Positions 39,093 through 43,229 of a DNA stretch of 43,330 nucleotides are shown in pieces (position 1 is the stretch's first letter; each line of letters starts with the position of its first letter). The translations under genes were made by a program, and so were the position numbers. Below the pieces are notes generated by a model that made no database searches, was not told the origin of the DNA, and was given only the letters and a program-made list of their open reading frames with translations. This DNA comes from Sulfurimonas sp. (lineage in GTDB: Bacteria > Campylobacterota > Campylobacteria > Campylobacterales > Sulfurimonadaceae): positions 92,665 through 135,994 of the forward strand of contig JAQUFE010000001.1 in NCBI GenBank assembly GCA_028684815.1. The letters run 5' to 3'.

Positions 39093-40247
39093 ATGAAAAT
39101 ATATGATGTTTTAATCCTCGGCGGAGGGGCTAGTTCTTTGATGTGTGGGGCTCATTTGAGCAAAAAATTAAGTGTTGGCATCATCGATGCCAATGCTAAA
39201 GTTGCACAAAAACTTAAAATCTCTGGCGGTGGTAAGTGTAATATTACAAATACCATAATGAGCGAGAAAAACTTTGATGGAGATGCGGAGCTAATTTCAA
39301 GTGTTTTGAGTCGTTTTAGTAGAGATGATTTACTAGAGTTTTTAAAGCAAAATGGGCTTAATCCTGTTGTGCGAAAAAACCGCTACTATTTTTGCAAAGA
39401 CTCATCTGATGAGATTATAAATATCCTAAAAAAACTCACTTCAAGAAACACTTTTATGCTCAACTGTGATATATTAGAAGTTAGCAAAATGGATGATATT
39501 TTTTGTGTCAAAACAAGCCAAGGCGAGATAAAAGCTAAAAGAGTAGTGGTTGCAACTGGTGCAAAGAGTTACAAAACTTTAGGAGCTAGTGAGATAGGAC
39601 TCGGTATTGCCAAAAGCTTTGACATTGCAACAAAAGAGTTTACTCCAGCACTTGTGGGGCTTACTCTTCAAAAAGAGCAGTTTTGGATGAAAGAGCTTAG
39701 TGGACTTAGCTGTAATGTCCGCATAAAAGTAGAAGATAGAATTTTAGAAGAGGACCTGCTTTTTGCGCACAAAGGCATTAGCGGACCTGTTATTCTCAGT
39801 GCATCTCTGTATTGGAAAAAGGGAAATATATCTATAGATTTTTTGCCAGATAGAGATATATCAGAACTTACAAGGGAAAGTAAAAAACTCATAAGCTCGG
39901 TAATTCCTCTACCAAAAAGACTTAGTGTAGCCATACTAAAGGCCTTAGATGTTGTAGATGTAGAGTGCAGAAAAATAACAAAAGAGCAGAGAGAAAAACT
40001 CCAAAATATTCATAACTATGTGTTCGCTCCAGCTGGTAACTTTGGTTTTACAAAGGCTGAAGTTTGTCGGGGTGGAGTCCTTAGCTCTGAGTTAGACTTT
40101 AAAACTCTAGAGTCAAAAAAGGTTAAAAATCTACATTTTATAGGTGAAGTTGTAGATGTAACGGGAGAGCTTGGAGGTTATAACTTCCAATGGGCTTTTA
40201 GTAGCGGTGTGGTCTGTGCAAGAGAGATAAATAATTCCATCTCGTGA
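39093..40247 (+). CDS. BaiN/HI0933-family NAD(P)/FAD-dependent oxidoreductase
   Basis: A flavoprotein of 384 aa, substrate unknown. Its N-terminal dinucleotide site is ILGGGASSLMCGAHL (8-22); family-specific KLKISGGGKCNITN follows; C-terminal GEVVDVTGELGGYNFQWAFSSG closes the FAD site. A middle insert (about 190-330) is as in HI0933/YhiN. These are cytoplasmic proteins with suspected reductase roles. It is a single gene between repeat clusters; no operon partner. Confidence 0.9.
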   Translation: MKIYDVLILGGGASSLMCGAHLSKKLSVGIIDANAKVAQKLKISGGGKCNITNTIMSEKNFDGDAELISSVLSRFSRDDLLEFLKQNGLNPVVRKNRYYFCKDSSDEIINILKKLTSRNTFMLNCDILEVSKMDDIFCVKTSQGEIKAKRVVVATGAKSYKTLGASEIGLGIAKSFDIATKEFTPALVGLTLQKEQFWMKELSGLSCNVRIKVEDRILEEDLLFAHKGISGPVILSASLYWKKGNISIDFLPDRDISELTRESKKLISSVIPLPKRLSVAILKALDVVDVECRKITKEQREKLQNIHNYVFAPAGNFGFTKAEVCRGGVLSSELDFKTLESKKVKNLHFIGEVVDVTGELGGYNFQWAFSSGVVCAREINNSIS

Positions 40248-40255
40248 ACTTCTGT

Positions 40256-40710
40256 ATTTTGGGAGATGTTTGTGATATGCATTCCACCTCGGGAGAGGTG
40301 GAACGAGAGGGATTCCGTGTCAAGCACGGCATGACGGAACACTTCGTCATCCTGAACTTCTCGTTGCACCACTCTCGCCACACTTTTTCTGAGGTGTGGC
40401 GTATTTTGGGAGATGTTTGTGATATGCATTCCACCTCGGGAGAGGTGGAACGAGGGGTAGAACTCTCTGCTTAATCTATAAACTAGATTCCGTGTCAAGC
40501 ACGGCATGACGGAACACTTCGTCATCCTGAACTTCTCGTTGCACCACTTTCGCCACACTTTTTCTGAGGTGTGGCGCATTTTGGGAGTTGTTTGTGATAT
40601 GCATTCCACCTCAGGAGAGGTGGAACGAGAGGGATTCCGTGTCAAGCACGGAATGACGAGACATGCACGGAATGACGAGACACGCATGGAATGACGGGAC
40701 ACGCGTCATT
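40256..40710 (+). repeat. Cluster of three mosaic palindromic repeat units
   Basis: Unit starts (ATTTTGGGAG) at 40256, 40403 and 40578 give periods of 147 and 175 bp. Each unit contains TTCCACCTC-nnnn-GAGGTGGAA, then CCGTG-tcaag-CACGG, then (in the first two) CGCCACAC/GTGTGGCG. The 28-bp length difference is an insert in unit 2 (TAATCTATAAACTAGATTCC region) identical to the terminal repeat of the 1857-1973 element. After unit 3 there are three short AATGACG(A/G)GACA repeats. It fills the gap 40248-40794; short frames across it are not credible genes. Confidence 0.8.
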
Positions 40711-40725
40711 ATGAACGAACAAACC

Positions 40726-40752
40726 GTCATCCTGAACTTGATTCAGGATCCA
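40726..40752. repeat. Solo TTCAGGATGACG-type palindrome
   Basis: CATCCTGAACTTGATTCAGG holds the TTCAGG/CCTGAA stem around cttga. The same word is at 1881-1903 and, with one change, at 42797-42820. It is a dispersed short repeat. Confidence 0.6.
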
Positions 40753-40794: not shown

Positions 40795-42702
40795 TTACTC
40801 CACTATAGTCCTCATAGACACATCTAGTTTAATATCATCACCTATGTTCCCAGATATGTTTTTCTTTAAACTTACCAAGTCTTCTTTACTTAAAAGTGTG
40901 TCACTTCTTGTTTTTATATATAGAAGTGGAATTTTAGAGCTTAGATCTACTTCTAGGACAGTAATATCAACTTTTTTATTATCTATAATGTAGATTTTGT
41001 TGTTTAGTCTGCTTAAGATGCTATTTTGCTTGATGAGTTTTGTAAAGGAGACTATCAAGGGAATTGCCACTAAAGCTAAAATTATAGAGGTATAAAGCAG
41101 TCCTTTTTTTGCTCTTTTTAGAGGTGAATATCCTAAGACTAAAAATGTCAAAGATGCAGAGAGTGTGATACCTACGAGGTTAGTAATAAAGAGTAAAAAT
41201 GAGCCATAAATGATGTCTATGTTGCCCCAACCTATACCGATACCTGTTACACTTAGTGGCGGAATAAGAGCTACGGCTATTGCTACTCCTGCTAAACTCT
41301 TAGCTACTTCGCTTTTAGAACTTGCGTAAGCTCCAGCAATTCCTGAGATGATGGCTACCATAAGGTCGAGTACATTTGGATTTAGTCGCCCTCGCATCTC
41401 TGGTGTTAGTTCTGAGAGAGGCATAGAATATGTGTAGATGCATGAGAAAAATAGAGCGGTGGTTACACCATAAGCCAATGTTTTTATACTGCTACTAATG
41501 AGTTGATTCTCAGCTCTAACTACACCCATGGAGAGTGAGATTATAGGACCCATAAGTGGTGCTAAAATCATCGCACCAATGATAACTGGAGCTGAGTTTT
41601 GAAACAAACCTGTAGTTGAGAGGAGTGTACTTAGTACCATTAGCACTATAAAGATTGAGCTAAACTTTGAACTCTCTCTTAGTGAGAGAAATAGATCTTT
41701 AAAGTCTTCTTCTTCTGCTCTTTTAAACAGCGGAACAGTCTCACTCAAAAGAGAGCTTACCATCTCACCTTTTGGTAAGTCGTTTGTTTTTATAGTATCT
41801 TTTTCATCTTCTGTTGCAAGTTCTTTTGGCAACTCTTTTATATCCCTGCCTAAAGAGATACTAAGAGCTTCTTTTATAACCTCTAACTCAATGACTTTAG
41901 AGCTTACTAAACTCTCATCTATTTTAAAATCCATAGGCTTAGAACTTGTAATATTTAATTTTGAAGTTTTTATAACGCCTATACTTCTAGGAAGATTGCT
42001 TAGTGAAATTTTACTATAAAAAAACACCAAAAAGAGATAATAGACATAGGATAAGATGCTTGTAGGTGAGAGTATAAAAACATTTAGCTTGCCATCTTGA
42101 AATGAAAAATCTTCATTATCTGCATTATTACTGGCATATTTTACACTGTGTTTGAGTATCAAAACGCCAGTTGCTGCGGTATGGAGTTCATAATCTTTTA
42201 TAGTTGTAAAGGTAAAATCTTTAAAGCTTAGATGCCTTATGTGTATGAAAAAGTTTTTTACTTTTGAGAAGAAAAGCCTCTTCTCTAAACTGACATTATT
42301 TAGTCCATGAACATTTCCGATAATGATACTTGTAAAAGTAGGCTCACCGTTACAAAGTAGTATATCTACTTTCATATATCTTGAACTCTCAAGCGCATCT
42401 TCAAGAGCTTCATGGATGTCGTTTGAGACTCCATAACTTGAGATGGTTTTAGGGTTCTTGCTAGTTGGAAGGATTGCTATATTTATATCACTATTTAAGT
42501 GATTTTTAAAAAAAACTTTTATCTCTTCATCACTAAGATATAACAATACAAATGCTTTTAACCCAGCCGCATCAATAGTCTCATTATAGTATTTTAACTC
42601 TACTTCTAACTCATAGTGAGTTTTTATAAGTAAGACTAAGTCACTAAAAGCAGTTGTTTGTTCTTCATCTTTAGTTGTAACTAAAAAGACTTTTTTTATC
42701 AT
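40795..42702 (-). CDS. DUF389/TIGR00341 membrane protein with lipid-kinase-like N-terminal domain
   Basis: 635 aa. Residues 345-560 carry the DUF389 membrane core: about six or seven helices with NSAPVIIGAMILAPLMGPI, GIAGAYASSKSE and VALIPPLSVTGIG. Residues 1-270 resemble the diacylglycerol kinase fold: an ILPTSKN segment (77-83) where kinases have ILPLGTAN, VDILLCNGEPTFTSIIIGNV (112-131), DGKLNVFILSP (203-213), and a terminal SKPMDFKIDES (254-264). The catalytic GGDGT is missing; FVLLYLSDEEI (51-61) stands in its place, so this is probably a non-catalytic sensor domain. Function of DUF389 is unknown. It is a single gene with repeats on its 3' side. Confidence 0.82.
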   Translation of the reverse strand: MIKKVFLVTTKDEEQTTAFSDLVLLIKTHYELEVELKYYNETIDAAGLKAFVLLYLSDEEIKVFFKNHLNSDINIAILPTSKNPKTISSYGVSNDIHEALEDALESSRYMKVDILLCNGEPTFTSIIIGNVHGLNNVSLEKRLFFSKVKNFFIHIRHLSFKDFTFTTIKDYELHTAATGVLILKHSVKYASNNADNEDFSFQDGKLNVFILSPTSILSYVYYLFLVFFYSKISLSNLPRSIGVIKTSKLNITSSKPMDFKIDESLVSSKVIELEVIKEALSISLGRDIKELPKELATEDEKDTIKTNDLPKGEMVSSLLSETVPLFKRAEEEDFKDLFLSLRESSKFSSIFIVLMVLSTLLSTTGLFQNSAPVIIGAMILAPLMGPIISLSMGVVRAENQLISSSIKTLAYGVTTALFFSCIYTYSMPLSELTPEMRGRLNPNVLDLMVAIISGIAGAYASSKSEVAKSLAGVAIAVALIPPLSVTGIGIGWGNIDIIYGSFLLFITNLVGITLSASLTFLVLGYSPLKRAKKGLLYTSIILALVAIPLIVSFTKLIKQNSILSRLNNKIYIIDNKKVDITVLEVDLSSKIPLLYIKTRSDTLLSKEDLVSLKKNISGNIGDDIKLDVSMRTIVE

Positions 42703-42823: not shown

Positions 42824-42896
42824 TTAATAACGAACTTTAAAACTAGAGGGTATAATCATTCTTAGAAAAACATAACTCTTACTGTTGGATAATTTT

Positions 42897-43229
42897 ATGA
42901 AAAACATTTTAATATTAGCTCTCTTTTTAAGTTTAGCCCAAGGTGATGTTGTAAAAAAAAATACACTCGCTTGTCCTAGTGTTGAGGCGCTAAGAGGTGC
43001 ACCTTTAAGTAAAGATGATGACTCTATGAGTCTTAGTCTCTATAGCATTGCAAATAATTGCATCATCATAAGTCATAAGGACAAGATTGAGGCGGTCGGA
43101 TATGATCCATTAAACACGAAAGAGATGCATCAAAAAATCATCTATAAAAAAACAGGAGCTACTCTTTATGTATTAAAGTCAAGCATAGATGTTGAGCAGA
43201 GTGGCAAAAAGAACTCTCTAAGATTTTAA
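42897..43229 (+). CDS. Small exported protein of unknown function
   Basis: 110 aa from the ATG at 42897 (GGA 7 nt upstream; a TTG 12 nt earlier is less likely). A signal peptide is clear (about 1-16, ending LAQG). The mature part has two cysteines (C26 and C55) that could form a disulfide, and short strand-like segments (NNCIIISHKDKIEAVGYDP, KTGATLYVLKSSID). TATAAT at 42851-42856 may be its -10 box. I do not recognise a family. Likely periplasmic. Confidence 0.75.
   Translation: MKNILILALFLSLAQGDVVKKNTLACPSVEALRGAPLSKDDDSMSLSLYSIANNCIIISHKDKIEAVGYDPLNTKEMHQKIIYKKTGATLYVLKSSIDVEQSGKKNSLRF

Follow-up and report, generated by a model that had tools for sequence, protein, structure and literature searches.

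What is a lipid-kinase domain without its nucleotide-binding motif doing at the head of a membrane protein? The question is raised by a gene in a 43,330-nucleotide stretch of a Sulfurimonas sp. genome (GenBank assembly GCA_028684815.1, contig JAQUFE010000001.1, positions 92,665 to 135,994), hereafter the window. An earlier note, made from the sequence alone, described its product as a lipid-kinase-like half lacking GGDGT joined to a DUF389 half. We put the chance at about one in two that a dead lipid-kinase domain binds a ligand and sets the state of a DUF389 core that passes a solute or an ion across the inner membrane. The parts of the protein to which the argument refers are as follows.

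40795..42702, minus strand: whole gene of the putative pseudo-lipid-kinase-DUF389 membrane protein, an open reading frame (ORF) of 635 amino acids plus stop
41833..42702, minus strand: N-terminal lipid-kinase-fold domain, residues ~1–290 (NCBIfam, profile and predicted structure)
42523..42537, minus strand: LSDEE, residues 56–60, at the GGDGT position, Asp58 aligning with the GGDGT Asp (alignment with kinases)
42079..42096, minus strand: DGKLNV, residues 203–208, at the kinase DGxLDV, Asn207 replacing the acid (alignment with kinases)
41911..41919, minus strand: DES, residues 262–264, at the kinase DGE, Ser264 replacing Glu (alignment with kinases)
41017..41658, minus strand: DUF389 membrane core, seven predicted helices, residues 349–562, with Pfam PF04087 at 378–514 (Pfam and predicted structure)
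40807..40995, minus strand: C-terminal beta-alpha-beta domain, residues 570–632 (predicted structure; probable outside placement, from the helix count)

The ORF starts with ATG, contains no internal stop and is intact in the source genome, where it lies near a contig end.

The N-terminal half has the fold of lipid kinases

None of the Pfam kinase models matches the N-terminal half of the window protein, and a single-sequence search of the PDB with the whole protein returned no solved relative. PF00781 (DAGK_cat) is without match in the window protein, in its genome, which carries the unrelated DgkA-type PF01219, and among the families listed for 73 members of the fused family (E 0.01). Two NCBIfam models are matched far under their curated cut-offs, PRK00861 ("putative lipid kinase") on residues 68–292 at 2e-9 and PRK13059 at 2e-5. 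A profile built from the 73 N-terminal halves matches the PDB entry 4wer at 6.5e-14, 4wrr, 3s40 and 3t5p near 1e-12, YegS near 5e-6 and DgkB at 2e-4. Taken individually, 45 of the 73 members match PRK00861, 34 match TIGR00147 and 10 match the Pfam model YegS_C.

Structure prediction, the check that the earlier note had set beforehand against an unrelated fold, gave a lipid-kinase fold. The AlphaFold2 model of the N-terminal half, with a mean predicted local distance difference test score (pLDDT) of 89, displays the two-domain kinase architecture. Lipid kinases fill the first 46 rows returned by Foldseek, among them sphingosine kinase 1 and the row of the TIM22 complex; VIA-align places DgkB (2qvl) at Z 21.4, with a root mean square (r.m.s.) deviation of 3.5 over 260 aligned residues, and NAD kinases next at Z ~13. 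Profile and predicted structure together confirm that residues ~1–290 are homologous to the diacylglycerol-kinase/YegS lipid kinases, with the same predicted fold. Chance resemblance is ruled out by the profile score and the DgkB match; the likeness is far beyond chance because the motif matches keep the kinase order over 220–290 residues. A membrane-inserting helix at residues 214–231 was considered and is not claimed, its hydrophobicity (0.84 versus 0.59 in kinases) being only slightly higher and overlapping.

The catalytic motifs are lost throughout the family

The N-domains of the 73 members were aligned with 11 GGDGT-bearing kinases, which are PF00781 matches from genomes also carrying the fusion; locus L145, a fragment with a stop, was omitted from the kinase set. 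The 73 rows were chosen from the loci by leaving out duplicate copies of one genome, short DUF389 forms and cut genes, and a smaller, 32-row alignment (A1) omits L006, which has an internal TAA, the cut gene L026 and several near-copies. The GGDGT, GTxN, DGxLDV and DGE motifs are taken to have functional roles in lipid kinases. For the nucleotide motifs this draws partly on an account of DgkB that describes three nucleotide-binding motifs and a Mg contacted by Asp97 (PMC7864038).

In the window protein, GGDGT aligns to LSDEE (56–60), the start of the GxxPxGTxN loop to ILP, DGxLDV to DGKLNV and xDGE to IDES, which bears out the earlier description of the first ~270 residues as following the diacylglycerol-kinase pattern. 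That description also had GGDGT replaced by YLSDEE: the motif is indeed lost, with LSDEE aligned there, and the retained Asp58 had been overlooked. Further catalytic changes are Asn207 for the LDV acid and Ser264 for the DGE Glu.

These changes extend across the family. The complete GGDGT is present in 11/11 kinases and 0/73 members, and no member has at least three of its five letters. Position by position, and against 11/11 kinases in every case, the family keeps G56 in 8/73, G57 in 11/73, D58 in 57/73, G59 in 2/73, Thr or Ser at 60 in 4/73, G81 in 2/73 and N84, the Asn of GTxN, in 2/73. The acid at 207 of DGxLDV is found in 0/73 members versus 10/11 kinases, and E264 of DGE in 5/73 versus 10/11. 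Leu, Ser and Glu are the usual replacements of the nucleotide-loop glycines, and Leu-x-Asp-Glu is common at the GGDGT position; neither GGDGT nor its near form G[GE]DG[TS] occurs in any of 80 ORFs, the best 80 of 461 relatives. Several residues are nevertheless retained (P79 in 68 of the 73, D113 in 61, N118 in 67, G129 in 72, D203 in 65, G204 in 58 and D262 in 72), and others are specific to the family: P213 in 73/73 (kinases 5/11), S215 in 70/73 (1/11) and P238 in 70/73 (2/11). As judged from these alignments, the catalytic apparatus is degraded family-wide, and the pseudokinase character proposed in the earlier note holds as a property of the family, not of one gene. Annotation as an active lipid kinase is ruled out by the motif counts.

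Compared with the soluble lipid kinases (DgkB, YegS, BmrU; PF00781, PF19279, TIGR00147), the fused family thus shares the two-lobe fold over residues 1–290 (Z 19–21) and the conserved D113, N118, G129, D203 and D262. It differs in lacking GGDGT, GTxN, the LDV acid and the DGE Glu, in a shorter stretch ahead of the GGDGT position (a 6-column gap) and in being joined to a membrane domain.

The retained aspartates raise the idea that the N-domain remains an enzyme, but one that uses a different nucleotide or phosphoryl donor or carries out another reaction. Most members keep D58, D203 and D262, Leu-x-Asp-Glu recurs at the GGDGT position and NAD kinases belong to the same fold family. We regard this as distinctly improbable: the loop glycines, the GTxN Asn and the DGE Glu are gone from nearly all members, and the members vary at the motif sites, where an enzyme site is expected to be more uniform.

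The N-domain is conserved and the fusion is constant in the samples

The ratio of nonsynonymous to synonymous substitution rates (dN/dS) of the N-domain lies between 0.04 and 0.23 in 10 of 11 pairs (one was not computable), and that of the membrane core between 0.01 and 0.13, the domain limits in other members having been scaled from the window protein. The N-domain values are mostly above those of the core, yet well below 1. By this measure, the N-domain is under purifying selection and not decaying. A single degenerate gene is ruled out, as the N-domain is constrained and the motif loss is seen throughout the family.

Beyond Campylobacterota, the phylum of the window, we sampled the phyla of genomes G428 (Bowmanella) and G429 (Gillisia), taken to be Pseudomonadota and Bacteroidota, respectively. 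All 12 strong matches to the N-domain profile (E ≤1e-48) in 200 Campylobacterota genomes lie in long fused frames of 605–674 amino acids, as do all six in 248 genomes of the G428 phylum. A gap follows, the next best match being at 4e-18, and such matches resemble ordinary kinases; three weak partial matches sit in 488-residue frames. In a tree of DUF389 cores with 101 rows (55 fused and 46 other, chosen from 185 aligned), the 55 fused rows all fall on one side of a branch with a Shimodaira–Hasegawa-like approximate likelihood-ratio (SH-aLRT) value of 95, by a quick method. Since one branch splits off the fused rows, a single fusion, followed by descent or transfer, appears to be the simplest account.

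A conserved domain stripped of its catalytic residues with its scaffold residues kept could be purely structural, assembling or anchoring the membrane core and binding no ligand, by analogy with acylglycerol kinase in TIM22. One paper states that the role of that kinase in TIM22 is separate from its kinase function (PMC6240735), which makes it a lipid-kinase fold working next to a membrane translocase in a way that seems independent of catalysis. The predicted N-domain matches its fold at Z 16.5; acylglycerol kinase differs in being an active kinase, a separate subunit and mitochondrial. We consider a structural N-domain unlikely, though a serious contender, as Asp58 (57/73), Asp203 (65/73) and Asp262 (72/73), which stand at what we take to be the kinase active-site motifs, are retained more than scaffolding needs.

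The membrane core and its possible relation to channels

The second half of the protein is, as the earlier note had it, a clear DUF389 domain: PF04087 covers residues 378–514 with its whole model at 4.5e-42 (143.8 bits versus a gathering score of 23.9) and is matched by 73/73 family members at E ≤0.01. The likeness to the DUF389/TIGR00271/TIGR00341 membrane proteins extends to TIGR00341, which scores 124.7 bits against a cut-off of 94.75 over positions 104–316 of its 325, whereas TIGR00271 falls slightly below its own cut-off. Positions 1–103 of the TIGR00341 model have no counterpart in the 635-residue protein, the short N-terminal part of TIGR00341 proteins being replaced here by the 290-residue pseudo-kinase.

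The full-length model (mean pLDDT 86, predicted template-modelling score 0.74) contains helices at residues 331–345, 349–368, 372–396 (broken near 380), 399–426, 444–462, 468–492, 495–523 and 528–566, followed by a beta-alpha-beta tail (570–632). Positive charges are concentrated in the 522–534 loop. The N-domain is probably cytosolic, since these charges fit that placement, and the tail would then lie outside given seven crossings.

VIA-align superimposes residues 327–529 on the formate/nitrite/hydrosulfide (FNT) channel HSC (Z 11.2–11.5, with an r.m.s. deviation of 4.5 and 198 residues aligned at Z 11.5; 4fc4 at Z 11.2) and residues 346–525 on a fish aquaporin (Z 11.3, r.m.s. deviation 3.0, 167 aligned). 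VIA-align lists no membrane folds other than these FNT channels and the aquaporin, and their Z range is one that, by the tool's own warning, helical models often reach and that may reflect just a common helical arrangement. The core differs from them in having one more predicted membrane helix and no detected sequence similarity; hhalign against 11 FNT proteins gives a probability of ~0.1%, which does not support sequence homology. Matches to viral models were to a DUF389 protein and, weakly, to a formate/nitrite transporter. In a comparison aimed at a possible internal three-helix repeat, the two halves of the core align in the expected register, scoring 17.6 versus 16.3 for the reversed control; 4/120 block shuffles and 0/60 column shuffles reach this score, and the halves barely beat the controls, which is not significant. 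That DUF389 belongs to the FNT/aquaporin fold as a branch so far unrecognised, with a pore gated by a fused dead lipid kinase reading membrane lipid, is a speculative lead suggested by the predicted structure, and we think it unlikely to be right. If true, it would mean a lipid-gated aquaporin-like channel in bacteria.

The absence of a solved relative in the single-sequence search and of an FNT link in the sequence tests would suit a core that transports nothing, serving as a sensor or signalling scaffold by which information on lipid state reaches a second protein. This we hold improbable: the modelled residues 327–529 match FNT channels and an aquaporin structurally, and genes for MscS or periplasmic binding proteins adjoin the gene in some lineages.

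A regulatory reading of the fusion

The favoured explanation of a ligand-binding dead kinase domain acting on a solute- or ion-passing core can be put as a sequence of steps. The product would be an inner-membrane protein with a cytosolic N-domain (~1–290), a linker, a DUF389 core of about seven helices (349–562) and a small alpha/beta domain (570–632). The N-domain would have lost phosphate transfer and kept the two-lobe scaffold; it would bind a ligand, either lipid or nucleotide, within the former cleft or close to it, or read the membrane surface. Its movement would set the state of the core, and the core would pass a small solute or ion. We infer how the protein sits in the membrane, that it binds a ligand, that the core is regulated and that DUF389 is a channel or transporter; regulation by the dead-kinase domain is plausible. 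Because DUF389 also pairs with other partners, we take the N-domain to be an exchangeable regulator; most likely it is a pseudoenzyme that senses a ligand or lipid and acts on a channel or transporter of seven helices.

Several points weigh against this explanation. Domains of such a kind can be mere scaffolds, and the retention of Asp58, Asp203 and Asp262 in most members may indicate residual or altered activity. The case for DUF389 as a channel or transporter leans on a predicted structural match in the warned Z range and on lineage-specific neighbours; no neighbour is common across phyla and the window gene has no informative one.

In the available text of the papers found, we met no functional study of DUF389, only passing mentions or DUF3892/3893 instead, which agrees with the earlier statement that DUF389 has no established function, nor any description of a membrane core carrying a dead bacterial lipid kinase; TIGR00341 is not mentioned in any paper found. 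The present analysis adds that catalytic loss spans the family, that the fusion is constant and apparently arose once, and that the N-terminal part of TIGR00341 is replaced, together with the FNT/aquaporin lead. A seemingly dead lipid kinase conserved over three phyla and missed by the Pfam kinase model is joined to DUF389, which is widespread and annotated without function. Work on DUF389 would thereby gain a starting point, since the soluble domain is separable and could be purified and screened for ligands.

Distribution of the fused form

The fused form is present in 26/151 genomes of the window's family, one copy (L006) having an internal stop, and in 21/298 genomes of its phylum, where L047 was aligned by the search only from residue 212; in a later alignment the L047 ORF aligns from near its N-terminus. 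L006 (genome G140) is a full-length relative whose internal stop is a TAA, and related genomes hold intact copies. An earlier scan of the genome collection with one protein as query gave no match; the scan used here gave 461 relatives, and the best 80, which were kept, come from Sulfurimonas, Arcobacter and kin, Halioglobus, Methylophaga, Bowmanella, Alkalimonas, Cyclobacterium, Salegentibacter, Gillisia, Belliella and Magnetococcales. The fusion is recorded in Campylobacterota, Pseudomonadota and Bacteroidota.

A search with the DUF389 model found the domain in 13/150 Campylobacterota genomes (10 fused and 3 unfused), in 83/198 Bacteroidota genomes, with none fused among the 20 best loci examined, and in 33/249 Pseudomonadota genomes, with 6/20 examined loci fused. 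By length alone, five Bacteroidota frames of 621–631 residues look like the fused form, one of them being the known G429 fused protein. The loci examined numbered 10, 20 and 20, respectively, the others being judged by frame length except for three short Campylobacterota ones. Fused proteins outnumber unfused DUF389 proteins in the Campylobacterota sample and are in the minority in the other two. None of 99 matched plasmid records has a single place covering 80% of the query, and DUF389 occurs there without the fusion.

The other partners of DUF389 are seen in frames of ~330–550 residues without the kinase-like domain. Bacteroidota DUF389 proteins of 430–500 residues (L171–L190) have a long stretch after the membrane core instead of the N-domain. 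In genome G771, the N-domain of a fused gene lies in two overlapping pieces in different frames (L204, L228), like a frameshift or assembly error.

Genomic surroundings

Among the same-strand neighbours, 74/116 of which were given to Pfam, no gene common across phyla was found. In some lineages the same-strand gene next to the fused gene codes for an MscS channel, at 6 loci with gaps of −17 to 11 and in one case on the other side, or for a periplasmic binding protein, at 6 loci of which 5 show a one-base overlap. The one-base overlap between the periplasmic binding protein gene and the end of the fused gene is seen at L018, L019, L023, L024 and L026. In 31 other fusion genomes, PF00781 is matched in 19 (17 over the cut-off) and in none of the remaining 12; the fusion therefore neither requires nor excludes a real kinase of that kind.

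In the window, the upstream ORF (42885–43229) is divergent, and the same-strand downstream ORF (40178–40702) is made of repeats and is not a likely gene. Positions 40256–40739 hold direct repeats of a 147-base and an 86-base family, spaced by 147 and 175 bases, together with a 22-base near-palindrome and a 29-base unit, and the downstream minus-strand ORF lies mostly over them.
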